From Crystallibacter permensis (GTDB lineage: Bacteria; Actinomycetota; Actinomycetes; Actinomycetales; Micrococcaceae), in NCBI RefSeq assembly GCF_025960875.1, contig NZ_JAODLR010000012.1, positions 1 to 64,000 of the forward strand: a DNA stretch of 64,000 nt, in the 5' to 3' direction. The notes under the pieces are model-generated. The model ran no database searches. It had not been told where the DNA came from and worked only from the letters and a program-made list of their open reading frames with translations. The stretch's first letter is position 1. Each line of letters begins with the position of its first letter. Positions 29,305-58,302 of the stretch are shown piece by piece. The position numbers and the translations under genes are program-made.

Positions 29305-29323
29305 CATCCTCCACCAGTGATTA

Positions 29324-29354
29324 ACAGACCCCCGGCCAGCTGCCGGGGGTCTGT
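29324..29354 (+). terminator. Intrinsic terminator of the MFS gene
   Basis: Perfect 13-bp stem (ACAGACCCCCGGC), 5-base loop, then TTCATCC, 20 bp after the stop codon. It also lies between convergent genes. Confidence 0.75.
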
Positions 29355-29461
29355 TTCATCCTTGAGCGTTATTAGGACTTACTCATCTAGTTGGCATTTG
29401 TCCAGGGCCGGGGAAACCTGCGTGATGCTGTGACTCGTCGTGGTACGCGGCAGCAGCGGGG

Positions 29462-36027: not shown

Positions 36028-36915
36028 ATGATCAACGAAGATTCGAAGACCGGTGTCCGGCGATATAAACGATGGCTGCCGGCGCTGATGCTGTGCCTGC
36101 TTATGTCAGCTGTAGGCATTGGCGCCGCCCCGGCTGCAGATGCCGCCCCAAACAAGGGCGGCGGCAAGGGCGACAGCGGTGGCAGCACGGACCTGCTCGG
36201 CAATGATGTGTCCTGGCCGCAATGCGGCAAGGCGCTTCCGGATAACCCGGCGTTCGCCATCATCGGGGTGACCGGCGGCTTGGCCAACAACACCAACCCC
36301 TGCCTGTCCGAGCAATTGGCCTGGGCGGAGGAAGAGACGCTGACGGACGCCACCGGCCAGCCTGATGTGGCGCTCTACGTCAACACTGCCAACGCAGGGC
36401 ACGCGGGTTCCTGGTGGCCGGACAGCAACGTCTACCCGGAAGACGTCGATGATCCCGATTCCGTCGTCGTAGATAATCCTTACGGTAAGTGCAGCGGGGC
36501 CGAAGATGCGGCCTGCGCCTACATGTACGGCTGGGCCAAGGCCTACGACGACGCCAACATCCGCGGCATCAGCAACCCGGAGGATTATCTGTGGTGGCTC
36601 GACGTCGAAACCGAGAACAGCTGGTCCGAGACCGATCTGGAGGCCAACAGGGCCTCTCTGGAGGGCATGACCGACTACTTCGAGAGCATAGATGCCGACG
36701 TCGGCATTTACTCGACCAACTTCCAGTGGGGCCAGATCGTTGGCCAGGTCAGTGCGGACAGCAGCCTGGCCGGACTCCCGAGTTGGCTGGCCGGGGCACG
36801 GACAGCCAACGGGGCCAAGAACAACTGCTCCTCTGCGCCGCTCACGCCCGGCGGTTACGTGTCCGTCACGCAGTTCGTCTCGCGCGGCTTCGACTACGAC
36901 TACTCCTGCATTTAG
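36028..36915 (+). CDS. Secreted protein, GH25/DUF1906-like fold
   Basis: 295 residues with a signal peptide (hydrophobic segment about residues 17-36; probable cleavage after AADA/APN) and a Gly/Lys/Ser linker. The domain starts GNDVSWPQCGKALP, and includes VALYVNTANAGHAGSWWP, a WWLDVETENSW block (about 190) and VGIYSTNFQWGQI. The D-x-E pattern after a beta-strand recalls GH25-like or DUF1906 barrels that cleave or bind cell-wall glycan. Four or more Cys suggest disulphides. Exported, function inferred only by fold resemblance. Confidence 0.65.
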   Translation: MINEDSKTGVRRYKRWLPALMLCLLMSAVGIGAAPAADAAPNKGGGKGDSGGSTDLLGNDVSWPQCGKALPDNPAFAIIGVTGGLANNTNPCLSEQLAWAEEETLTDATGQPDVALYVNTANAGHAGSWWPDSNVYPEDVDDPDSVVVDNPYGKCSGAEDAACAYMYGWAKAYDDANIRGISNPEDYLWWLDVETENSWSETDLEANRASLEGMTDYFESIDADVGIYSTNFQWGQIVGQVSADSSLAGLPSWLAGARTANGAKNNCSSAPLTPGGYVSVTQFVSRGFDYDYSCI

Positions 36916-36922
36916 CCCCTCA

Positions 36923-36992
36923 GCGAGAACGTCCCTAAAGCACGAGAACGTCCCTTGCACGCCGAATACAAACGGTAAGGGACGTTCTCGTG
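36923..36992. repeat. 70-bp palindromic repeat, copy 1
   Basis: Three arms of one 12-16-bp unit: GCGAGAACGTCCCTA and CACGAGAACGTCCCTT in tandem, then the reverse complement AAGGGACGTTCTCGTG after a 20-bp spacer. The second and third arms form a perfect 16-bp stem. The same three-arm layout recurs at 53839-53909. It looks like a REP/MITE-type dispersed element; it lies 8 bp after a stop codon and could act as a terminator. Confidence 0.8.
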
Positions 36993-37049
36993 GTCGAAAC
37001 ACCCTGCACGGCCGGATCACCTGAGCGCAGGGCTGCTCGCGCAGCGGAC

Positions 37050-37469
37050 CTACTGCTGGGGCTGGCCGGCGATGTTGACCAGCCAGTTGATGCCGAATTT
37101 GTCCGTGAACATGCCAAAGGTATCGCCCCAGGGAGCCTTCTCCAGCGGTTCAGCGATGTTGGCGCCCTCGGTCAGTTTGTCCCAGTAGCCGCGCAGTTCG
37201 GCTTCGTCGTCGCCGCTGAGGGAGACCGAGATGTTGTCTCCGGGGTTGTAGGCCATGCCGTTCGGGGTGTCCGCGCACATGAGGGTGAGGCCGTTCGGGG
37301 TCTCCAGCATGGAGTGCATGATCTTCTCGCCTTCGGCTGGATCGTCACTGGCATGCAGTTCGGCGAAGGTGCTGCGGGTCAGTTCGCCACCGAAGGCCGC
37401 GTGGTAAAAATCCATGGCCTGCCGGGCGTTGTCGCGGAAGCTGAGGTACGGGTTGAGGCGCGTTGCCAT
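37050..37469 (-). CDS. VOC-family protein (PhnB/YjdN-like)
   Basis: 139-residue glyoxalase/bleomycin-resistance fold protein. It begins with TRLNPYLSFRDNARQAMDFYHAAFGGELT and has HSMLETPNGLTLMCADTP and the end WGDTFGMFTDKFGINWLVNI, as in the PhnB/3-demethylubiquinone-methyltransferase-like subgroup. AAAGGAG precedes the ATG. Members are often of unknown substrate. It is convergent with the secreted protein across the repeat. Confidence 0.85.
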   Translation of the reverse strand: MATRLNPYLSFRDNARQAMDFYHAAFGGELTRSTFAELHASDDPAEGEKIMHSMLETPNGLTLMCADTPNGMAYNPGDNISVSLSGDDEAELRGYWDKLTEGANIAEPLEKAPWGDTFGMFTDKFGINWLVNIAGQPQQ

Positions 37470-53340: not shown

Positions 53341-53706
53341 CTAGCGAAGCAGCCGGCCGATGGCGTCCGAGGCTTCCTTGACCTTGTCCTGCACGATGGT
53401 CGGGTCCCCGGCGGCTTCGGAATCCTTCGCGGCACCGACCACGCAGTGCGCGATGTGGTCCTCGAGCAGCCCGATGCTGACGGCGTGCAGGGCTTTGTTG
53501 ACCGCGGATACCTGGGTGAGGATGTCGATGCAGTACTTGTCCTCGTCCACCATGCGGGCGATGCCCCGGACCTGGCCTTCGATGCGCTTGAGTCGGCGCA
53601 GGTAGGCCGCTTTGTCTGTGGTGTAAGCGTGTCCGATGTGCTCGTCGGCTACGAGGGCATCCTCAAGGACCGACGGCTCGGCCGCGGGAAGATCTGTCTG
53701 GCTCAT
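53341..53706 (-). CDS. csoR: CsoR-family copper-sensing repressor
   Basis: 121 residues, all-helical CsoR/RcnR fold. The metal ligands have true CsoR spacing: Cys59 (KYCID), His84 and Cys88 (DHIAHC), 25 and 4 residues apart. Y/E second-sphere residues and RRLKRIEGQVRGIARM are present. It represses the operon until Cu(I) binds. The N-terminal extension of 30 residues is longer than usual. A perfect operator lies 34 bp upstream. Confidence 0.93.
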   Translation of the reverse strand: MSQTDLPAAEPSVLEDALVADEHIGHAYTTDKAAYLRRLKRIEGQVRGIARMVDEDKYCIDILTQVSAVNKALHAVSIGLLEDHIAHCVVGAAKDSEAAGDPTIVQDKVKEASDAIGRLLR

Positions 53707-53740
53707 GGCGTTCCTTCCGGTGAACTTCTATATCCAAGGT

Positions 53741-53757
53741 ATACCCCTTGGGGGTAT
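53741..53757. promoter_or_regulatory. CsoR operator
   Basis: Perfect inverted repeat ATACCCC-TTG-GGGGTAT, the classic CsoR box (GTATACCCC... on the left flank). It is placed to block transcription of csoR-copZ-copA. Confidence 0.85.
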
Positions 53758-53838
53758 GAATCAAGGGCGTATGGTCAACGCCTCACCATCGGTCGCTTAC
53801 TGCGGCCTCAGTGCATACCTCGCTACGGTCCCGTCACG

Positions 53839-53909
53839 GCGAGAACGTCCCTTAAACGCGAGATCGTCCCATACACCCGGGTGTCGGGCAGGTAAGGGAC
53901 GATCTCGTG
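53839..53909. repeat. 70-bp palindromic repeat, copy 2
   Basis: Same three-arm plan as 36923-36992: GCGAGAACGTCCCTTA, then CGCGAGATCGTCCCAT, then AAGGGACGATCTCGTG inverted after about 19 bp. Arms 2 and 3 differ from copy 1 at a paired position (A-T in AGAACG/CGTTCT becomes T-A in AGATCG/CGATCT), so pairing is kept. It lies between the copper operon promoter and a DHA2 gene end. Confidence 0.8.
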
Positions 53910-53965
53910 GGCGGAATGCAGCCCGGGCTGCTTGGCCCGTAACTCAGGGCTGCACCGCCCAGGAA

Positions 53966-55468
53966 TCAGGACTGGGCGTCGCGCAAGGTGCGGAAGGCCA
54001 GCCAGGCCGCGGCAACCATCAGCACGGACGCGATTCCGGCCGTGACCGTGACGCCGCTGTCGAAGGCGTGGAATGCCGACTCCAGTAGTGAGTCCGCGGT
54101 TCCGCCGGGAAGTTCGGCGGCAGTGTTGATGGCGCCGCCCAAGGTCTCGCTGGCTATCGCCTGCTGCGCCGCGGTGAGGTTTGCGGGCAGGTCGATGTTC
54201 TGCCGGTAGGCCGCCACCAGGATGCTGCCGAGCACCGCGGTGCCGAAGACCGAGCCCACCTCGTAGGCGGTTTCGGAAACCGCAGACGCCGCACCGGCCT
54301 TGGCCGCCGGGACGCTGGAGAGGATCAGGTCATTGGAGAGTGTTTCCGAAGCGCCCACGCCCGCGCCGAGTACGGCGAAGGCCAGCATAAGGTTTCCGGC
54401 CGAGGCGCCGGGGGCTGCGGCCACCATCCAGTAGGCCGTCGCCGAGAGCAGCAGTGCGACGGACACCACCAGGTGCGGGCGGACCCGGCGCACCAGCGGC
54501 ACCACCAGCAGGCCGGCAATGATGGTGATCGCGAGGCCGGGCAGCAGCACCAGTCCGGCATCCAGAGGGCTCAGCCCAAGGATCAGCTGCAGGTGCTGGG
54601 ACACGAAGTACAGGAAGCCGACCAGCGAGAACACCGCCAGCAGGTTGACCAGCACCGCGCCGGTGAACGGCCGGACCGTGAAAAGCCGCACGTCCAGCAT
54701 CGGCTGGTGCCGGCGAAGCTGGCGCCGGGTGAACAGCCAACCGGCGGTCACTCCAAGCGCGGCAATGGCCAGCGTCGCCATGAGGTTGCCGCCGTTGGCG
54801 AGGTTCTTGATGGCGTAGACCACCGGCAGCATCGTGGCGATGGAAAGGAAAATGCTCCAAATATCGACGGCGCCCGGTGCCGGATCCTTGGACTCCGGCA
54901 CGAAGAGCGGGGTCATGACGAGCATCAGCACCAACACCGGTACGGCCAGCAGGAACACGGAGCCCCACCAGAAGTGCTCCAGCAGCAGTCCGCCCAGGAT
55001 CGGGCCCAGCGCGGCACCGGCGGAGAAGCCGGCGGCCCAGACCGCGATGGCCAGGCGGCGCTGCCCGCGGTCGGTGAAGATGTTGCGGATCAGGGAAAGC
55101 GTGGCCGGCATCAGCATGGCACCGAAGACGCCCAAGCCGGCACGCGCGGCCACCAGCACCTCGGCGCTGGGGGCGAAGGCCGCCAGCACAGAAAAGACGG
55201 CAAAACCCACGGCACCCGTGATCAGCATGCGCCTGCGGCCGAACCGGTCGCCCAGGCTCCCCATGGCAACCAGCAGGCCCGCGAGCACCAATGGATAGAT
55301 GTCGATAATCCAGAGCAGGGTGGTCCCGCTGGTGTTGAACTCCAGCGAGATGGCAGGCAGGGCAAAGCTCAGCACCGTATTGTCGACGGCGACCAGCAGC
55401 ACGGGCAGCATGAGCGCTGCCAGGGCGGTCCATTCTTTGCGGCCGGCACGTTGGGTGATGGTGAGCAT
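53966..55468 (-). CDS. DHA2-family MFS drug exporter (14 TM)
   Basis: 500 residues with 14 hydrophobic segments. VAVDNTVLSFALPAISLEF (helix 1), GSLGDRFGRRRMLITGAVG (motif A) and LGPILGGLLLEHFWWGSVF (motif C) are of the DHA2/QacA-SmvA type. Start at ATG 55468 with AGGAGG six bases upstream. Divergent from a TetR gene that would normally repress it. Likely exports cationic drugs or dyes. Confidence 0.9.
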   Translation of the reverse strand: MLTITQRAGRKEWTALAALMLPVLLVAVDNTVLSFALPAISLEFNTSGTTLLWIIDIYPLVLAGLLVAMGSLGDRFGRRRMLITGAVGFAVFSVLAAFAPSAEVLVAARAGLGVFGAMLMPATLSLIRNIFTDRGQRRLAIAVWAAGFSAGAALGPILGGLLLEHFWWGSVFLLAVPVLVLMLVMTPLFVPESKDPAPGAVDIWSIFLSIATMLPVVYAIKNLANGGNLMATLAIAALGVTAGWLFTRRQLRRHQPMLDVRLFTVRPFTGAVLVNLLAVFSLVGFLYFVSQHLQLILGLSPLDAGLVLLPGLAITIIAGLLVVPLVRRVRPHLVVSVALLLSATAYWMVAAAPGASAGNLMLAFAVLGAGVGASETLSNDLILSSVPAAKAGAASAVSETAYEVGSVFGTAVLGSILVAAYRQNIDLPANLTAAQQAIASETLGGAINTAAELPGGTADSLLESAFHAFDSGVTVTAGIASVLMVAAAWLAFRTLRDAQS

Positions 55469-55556
55469 AGTGCACCTCCTGAAAAATTGCGGGGATGCAT
55501 CTACTGTACCGGCTGGACGGTTTAGCGGCAAGCCGATCGAAAGCTAGGATGGATGG

Positions 55557-58210: not shown

Positions 58211-58302
58211 GCGAAGACCACAACTAACGACGACGGCGGGAGGTCCCATAATGGGGCCGCCCGTCTGTGCTTGGGGGGATACGCACCGAACCGCGCGAGC
58301 TG

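Follow-up and report, generated by a model that had tools for sequence, protein, structure and literature searches.

REP sequences are common small bacterial repeats, and REPINs are inverted REP doublets with a variable spacer. RAYTs are the one enzyme class that, to our knowledge, accompanies REPs. For GTAG REPs, the REP/RAYT (TnpAREP) systems are described as repeat-specific 'REPtrons' (PMC3733652, PMC8266576), and the CGTC REPs are said to lack a dedicated transposase (PMC3733652). The main text of PMC3733652 does not contain the words actinobacteria, Arthrobacter or Cellulomonas. Table 3 of RepRanger (PMC12306157) gives REP-like sequences in one Arthrobacter genome. Hairpins of the type treated here may be among such computed sets, which run to thousands of generic hairpins in each genome; the main text of that paper nowhere uses the words transposase, endonuclease or RAYT.

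The palindromes reported here resemble those of REP/RAYT systems in being short, dispersed, intergenic and near gene 3′ ends, with eight copies in the genome under study (G000), and in that a gene for a DNA-processing enzyme is flanked by the repeats, although the enzyme is a different one, not a Y1/HUH transposase, and the genome's own gene has the repeat on one side. They have no conserved GTAG (or CGTC) tag at either end, the copies read beginning with CGAGAWC, and they are built of tandem and inverted 12-bp units, or are longer near-perfect palindromes. Like CGTC REPs they are palindromic repeats without a RAYT, but of another sequence; like REPINs they keep conserved inverted arms around a divergent spacer, but without a RAYT and with two to four units at near-fixed spacing. 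We take the element of the window to be a solitary member of a family of REP-like palindromes whose partner is a non-RAYT, AbiEi-type nuclease gene, a reading to which we give a probability of roughly 0.7.

The window is the whole 64,000-nucleotide stretch analysed (64.6% G+C). Two copies of one plan lie where an earlier note had placed them: copy 1 at 36922..36994 (+ strand; covariance model R1, 83.4 bits, E 3.9e-16) and copy 2 at 53838..53911 (+ strand; 84.3 bits, E 2.5e-16), each with two tandem 12-bp units separated by a 7-bp gap and one inverted unit. The spacer before the inverted unit, put at about 20 bp in that note, measures 24 bp in copy 1 and 25 bp in copy 2. The unit, CGAGAWCGTYCC, is termed type A; units of the form CGAGAWCGTCCC occur three times in each copy, and the six exact matches to CGAGANCGTCCC in the window are these six units. 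By exact pattern match, copy 1 has unit 1 (CGAGAACGTCCC) at 36924..36935 (+), unit 2 (CGAGAACGTCCC) at 36943..36954 (+) and the inverted unit 3 at 36979..36990 (−); in copy 2 these are unit 1 (CGAGAACGTCCC) at 53840..53851 (+), unit 2 (CGAGATCGTCCC) at 53859..53870 (+) and the inverted unit 3 at 53896..53907 (−). The starts of units 1 and 2 are 19 bp apart in both copies, and the expected number of such unit pairs at that distance is about 1e-6 per genome, from base composition with 65% G+C assumed. Single-unit patterns are useless for searching, since CGAGANCGTCCC with two mismatches gave 36 matches against 40.9 by shuffle.

Both copies are intergenic, as the earlier note had it. Copy 1 lies in 36916-37049, between convergent genes: one without a Pfam match that ends just before it (36028..36915, +) and a glyoxalase-superfamily gene (37050..37469, −; PF00903, 3.8e-14). 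Copy 2 lies in 53707-53965 between two − strand genes, with the gene for a CsoR-type metal-sensitive repressor downstream (53341..53706, −; PF02583, 5.1e-30) and an MFS transporter gene (53966..55531, −; PF07690, 3.4e-49) whose 3′ end faces it. No known RNA family of Rfam matches the window at the gathering threshold. Two other convergent intergenics of the window, 29305-29461 (which contains a hairpin at 29323-29355) and 58211-58302, cannot be aligned to the close relative G002, although their genes align.

Model R1, built from five of the copies, found eight full copies at E ≤ 4.7e-10 in the 4.95-Mb genome, which is a lower bound, as 150 of 1449 first-look candidates were scored. The other ten of the 18 R1 rows are reverse-strand readings of the eight copies and two weak matches with E > 2. 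Besides the two of the window (C12:36922 and C12:53838), the copies are at C2:89030, C2:113902, C2:120722, C2:150706, C4:109997 and C13:96050. All eight are between genes and three between convergent genes, on gene calls made partly by a simple codon-composition method, and the solitary copies sit at gene 3′ ends. The same search of nine same-genus genomes found nine more copies in three of them (three in G002, two in G004, four in G007) and no R1 element in the other six. Neither of the outcomes that the earlier note had named as contrary to its view, a lack of further copies or copies without conserved pairing, occurred. By flank alignment, all nine copies of the relatives are at orthologous sites that are occupied in the own genome too, so there is no sign of type A having jumped to a new site. 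Copy 2 is present in all four element-bearing genomes of the genus (the own one included); five others have its locus but gave no model match there and showed no element in the part that was read, and G005 had no match to the query. Beside C2:150706, about 680 bp with most of a TMEM175-type gene (L011 1575-2257) are absent in G002, the break lying at the element edge.

In copy 2 an A/T change in arm 2 is matched by one in arm 3, just as the earlier note described; as proof of a selected hairpin, which that note took it to be, this is weak evidence, because arm 1 is at least as good a pairing partner for arm 3 as arm 2 is. Over the 17 copies in four genomes, arms 1 and 3 are paired in 94.6% of cells and arms 2 and 3 in 89.7%, percentages that were reached by 2 and 18 of 500 shuffles, respectively. 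At the position of the change, arms 2 and 3 pair in 10 of 17 copies and arms 1 and 3 in 13 of 17, and in the predicted RNA folds of the eight own copies arm 3 joins arm 1 in five and arm 2 in three. The strong form of the claim, an arm 2-arm 3 hairpin as the selected unit, is therefore rejected. The compensatory pair is one case in a mixed picture where the arms within a copy tend to agree, and such agreement is expected from pairing and from copying alike.

The earlier note had also proposed a dispersed element of REP/MITE type, and had suggested a look for a REP-associated transposase. A REP-like dispersed palindrome is borne out by the eight intergenic copies, related elements in other genomes and the presence or absence of copies at given sites in close relatives; a RAYT partner is not. 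The Y1_Tnp family, PF01797, was found in one of 12 genomes tested, and none was found in G000, G002, G004, G007, G033 or G043; in a control set it matched 5 of 14 known genomes. With PF01797 missing in 11 of the 12 genomes, the own one included, a RAYT partner was rejected. The single match is G003:C6:35872-36228, in a genome where no window-type element was found.

An order-wide search with CGAGAWCNNCC...GGNNGWTCTCG matched 70 of 297 genomes, and the reversed control matched one. Many of the single matches look like chance, inside genes. Among the matches listed there are families of fixed length in G094 (56 bp), G179 (55-56 bp), G166, G294, G190 (50 bp), G043 and G264. Some of these, in G043 and G190, have four units, two each way, the unit being 12 bp and the period about 19-20 bp. 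By reading only, without a statistic, this four-unit layout raises the idea that the 25-bp spacer is a decayed fourth unit. At a contig end of G264 (L084 7050-7783) twelve CGAGAACGGCC units, some facing one way and some the other, form an array that runs up to the contig end, several of the units being exactly 19 bp apart.

The link with a gene was first noticed in G094, where elements cluster around a 349-codon gene; G094 is the discovery genome and hence no independent test of that link. The product has weak Pfam matches (the best to the MTES_1575 restriction-type domain, 0.058), no model in NCBIfam, and matches to the AbiEi models of PADLOC at 8.8e-11. Of its four relatives in the own genome the best is C2:120689-121945, which matches AbiEi_4 (PF13338) at 7.9e-7 and 29.5 bits, above the cut-off of 25, MTES_1575 REase at 0.0013, below the cut-off, and PADLOC AbiEi models down to 1.5e-15. 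The gene before it is of HemD type and carries a regulator domain as well; the element C2:120722 lies between that gene and the probable start codon of this nuclease gene, at L128:1780, and so on the 5′ side of the nuclease gene only. One ORF downstream reads like an aldehyde dehydrogenase. Among the listed neighbours of the AbiEi-type gene no AbiEii gene was recognised on reading. The three other relatives (near C2 10323, C1 104941 and C5 129657) adjoin inverted repeats of other sequence, and an exact search with the palindrome of another own paralogue returned the gene-linked copy only.

At 4 of the first 30 loci of homologues a CGAGAWC palindrome was within 1.5 kb. CGAGAAC-type palindromes flank the gene left and right in G094, G166 and G179 (56 bp in the latter two). 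A distant relative in G190, whose product shares 32% identity with the own protein across 293 aligned positions, is bracketed by two multi-unit CGAGAACGACC elements, one to either side, and its locus appears, from sequence, to be the closest match to the architecture in the window. Genomes G004 and G007 carry elements while lacking a close orthologue of the own nuclease gene, that locus being empty, so the elements can outlast the enzyme. In G006 there is a 42% relative but no elements were found. A contig scan with the own protein as query found no relative. Phages gave no match to the protein of a Cellulomonas relative (L206, below), and plasmid records gave four weak matches to the own protein. 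Of two loci read in the plasmid collection, one matches at 24/24 across the gene and the other at 18/24; in another order, the flanks of such a gene match at 24/24 in one Tsukamurella record and do not in a second. A string, CGAGATCGAC, was seen by reading at the codons of the conserved E-I-D motif in several nuclease loci (L104 1693, L105 1636, L106 1618, L118 1621), a recurrence that is probably codon usage.

A profile scan with alignment A3 was used to sample relatives of the gene, and the best 80 of 300 were kept, mostly from Cellulomonas, Cellulosimicrobium, Oerskovia, Isoptericola and Promicromonospora; the sample includes several near-duplicates (same species or locus) and tests the wider gene family, not the close relatives of the own gene. 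Among these best 80 of 300, the left and right 400-bp flanks had at least 21 of 24 bp in common at 58 of 79 loci, the remaining 21 being without a strong match. In the controls this degree of sharing was seen in 1 of 69 pairs of stretches taken 2 kb away, in 3 of 77 shuffled pairs (relatives included), in 1 of 21 other genes of those loci and in 0 of 37 genes of the window. A pair of inverted repeats with common arms was present at 52 of 80 loci versus 0 of 69 far pairs, and inverted repeats numbered 178 in 83.7 kb near the gene versus 149 in 208.1 kb far from it. The strict CGAGAWC form was near the gene at 5 of 80 loci (a sixth match, 1.8 kb away, looks like chance); other loci have different arms, many starting with CGAAC or CGAGCAC. 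Since CGAGAWC loci are few and same-arm flanks many, the arms belong to the gene or genome, and the arrangement is general in the sample. Within the own genus, the inverted repeats at 15 loci numbered 14 over 13.5 kb close to the gene and three over 21 kb far from it. The own gene contributed 0 to this count, its match start being that of an over-long ORF covering the element; by eye, four loci of the genus have like arms on both sides. Four Promicromonospora loci (L167, L168, L174 and L183) have long near-perfect palindromes of the CCTTTGAGGCCTAAGTTTCTTCGCTTTG type beside the nuclease gene, one of them with 47% G+C although its locus has about 72%.

Solitary palindromes with the same arms as those at the gene were found nine times in the far flanks, in 9 of 52 loci, versus two to four with swapped arms. 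Over 48 loci, similarity between palindromes correlated more closely with identity of the N-terminal part of the protein (partial r 0.33, permutation 0.001) than with that of the C-terminal part (partial r 0.13, permutation 0.009), correlations in which shared descent is still contained; in the N-terminal part, residues 61-200 correlate at 0.43 and the winged helix, residues 1-60, at 0.24. The pairing of palindrome and gene is well supported.

Comparison with G002 gives a closer look at how the two change. About 90% DNA identity between the own and G002 genomes extends a few bases beyond the HemD stop and returns at about the middle of the nuclease gene, alignment resuming at 59% of the gene (45% with other settings); of the stretch in between, which spans the element and the gene's 5′ half, only 71 bp align. 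Codon-aligned identity is 38-66% in codons 1-150, 68% in 151-210 and 76-86% in 211-300, and falls to 69% over the final 26, so that the nuclease gene is more diverged than its surroundings throughout and its N-terminal part most. Upstream of the gene G002 has another palindrome, GCCTGCGAAAGCGGTGC (type B: 17 bp, a 6-bp loop, 17 bp). Two more type-B copies, paired and imperfect, are found in G002, in the same intergenics as C2:89030 and C13:96050, with adjoining stretches 91.9-95.5% identical to the own ones; paired arms only were used here, because in the matches listed the type-B arm at three mismatches was about as frequent as its reversed control. Their offsets within the intergenics differ, which argues for loss of type A and gain of type B and not for a change in place. 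At the other G002 sites three keep type A and one has a decayed half. Of 34 control intergenics compared between the two genomes, 31 align clearly above shuffled ones and three fail. The palindromes associate with this type of gene, the arms are gene-specific, and palindrome and gene appear to turn over jointly.

Relatives also show empty sites. The 1338-bp stretch with the element and the nuclease gene is absent from G004 (42 bp, with flanks 93-97% identical) and from G007 (140 bp). Site C2:113902 is 112 bp in the own genome and 27 bp in G004. Site C2:89030 is 208 bp in the own genome, with an imperfect duplication of about 49 bp around the element in the alignment as read; G004 has one unit-like sequence there, CGAGAACACCCC, and G007 has 7 bp. 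The intergenic of copy 1 holds an unrelated hairpin instead in G004 and G007. In all these comparisons whole intergenic stretches differ, and there is no clean insertion with a short target duplication; the empty sites reflect gain or loss, in either direction.

The protein of Cellulomonas sp. URHD0024 (L206) was modelled by AlphaFold2 with 75 sequences (pLDDT 92.6, pTM 0.90); the model is of a distant relative, which shares 30% identity with the own protein across 144 aa. Its residues 207-312 match the catalytic domain of the homing endonuclease I-Bth0305I, which we take to be an EDxHD family member, with Z 10.4 (94 aligned, rmsd 2.8), other nuclease folds following at lower Z, and its residues 3-202 match the AbiEi antitoxin 6y8q with Z 8.8 (179 aligned, rmsd 6.6); these Z ranks come from re-scoring Foldseek matches, and Foldseek itself puts AbiEi first. 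A sequence-profile search of solved structures gave no good match, the best being AbiGI and AbiEi chains at E 0.6-0.7. Residues E210, D243, E257, D259, H264 and D273 are invariant and would fit a metal-dependent nuclease. On this model, the cognate protein is predicted to have two parts, an AbiEi-type winged-helix and middle domain at the N-terminus and a nuclease of the PD-(D/E)XK/EDxHD kind as its C-terminal domain. EDxHD is a homing endonuclease family (PMC6083498); the C-terminal fold predicted for L206 is like that of the Vsr-like I-Bth0305I, but the gene here lies between palindromes, is fused to an AbiEi-type domain and is not seen in an intron. With the AbiE toxin-antitoxin systems the protein shares its AbiEi-type N-terminal domains (PF13338; 6y8q), and it differs in the fused nuclease domain.

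A mechanism can be proposed on these grounds. The N-terminal part would bind the 12-bp units, at their 19-bp spacing and in inverted pairs, and the nuclease would nick or cut at or near the unit sites. Repair might then copy palindrome-bearing DNA into new or empty sites; in this way we infer that the copies spread, and gene and palindromes would spread and change together. The hairpin at solitary sites may also end transcription. Such a role, which the earlier note had offered as one of its two options, is possible from sequence; it is compatible with mobility, as is a regulatory role, and could coexist with it. As a full account, we regard it as very unlikely that the palindromes are ordinary bidirectional terminators whose arms are alike by chance or shared use. 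Their 3′-end location, the hairpins predicted in the eight copies (z −2.2 to −5.7) and the different hairpin that stands in the copy 1 intergenic of G004 and G007 would suit terminators, yet these need no common arm sequence, while the eight copies have their units and a near-constant spacing in common; the same-arm flanks of the nuclease genes are left unexplained, and a scan of copy 1 (36922-36994) called no T-run terminator.

It is unlikely, in our judgement, that the palindromes are operators through which the AbiEi-type domain regulates its own gene and a few others, without mobility. That account draws on the AbiEi-type N-terminus, the element upstream of the own gene and the strict 19-bp spacing of units, which suits a protein array; palindrome type and N-terminal part differ together at the nuclease locus, and two other sites have the new type. 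Against it stand the gene 3′-end position of the solitary copies, three of eight being between convergent genes, and the second same-arm palindrome close after the gene at 52 of 80 loci; operators in such places would have no obvious use. Very unlikely, too, are MITE-like relics of an undetected insertion sequence, with an incidental nuclease link: the 58 of 79 flanking result with its controls and the joint switch of type speak against them, even though the elements are dispersed inverted repeats, present or absent by site, and the search for transposases was for PF01797 only. We thus prefer the solitary copy of a palindrome family with an AbiEi-type nuclease gene as partner. Its extension to a whole actinobacterial class of REP-like selfish systems, with an evolutionary origin separate from that of RAYT, is a tentative one, to which we would give rather less than even odds; each AbiEi-type, homing-endonuclease-like gene would own a palindrome family, the N-terminal part reading it, the nuclease making breaks whose repair would spread and homogenise it, and specificity switching jointly.

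By title and abstract, the literature searched gave no link of AbiEi-type nuclease genes with flanking palindromes; a description elsewhere is possible. If true, a second, unrelated enzyme with the REP arrangement would mean that the pairing of palindrome and enzyme arose more than once. It would also suggest a role for the actinobacterial 'AbiEi-family antitoxin domain proteins', such as WP_074851054.1, and would provide a natural collection of enzyme/site pairs whose specificity changes.
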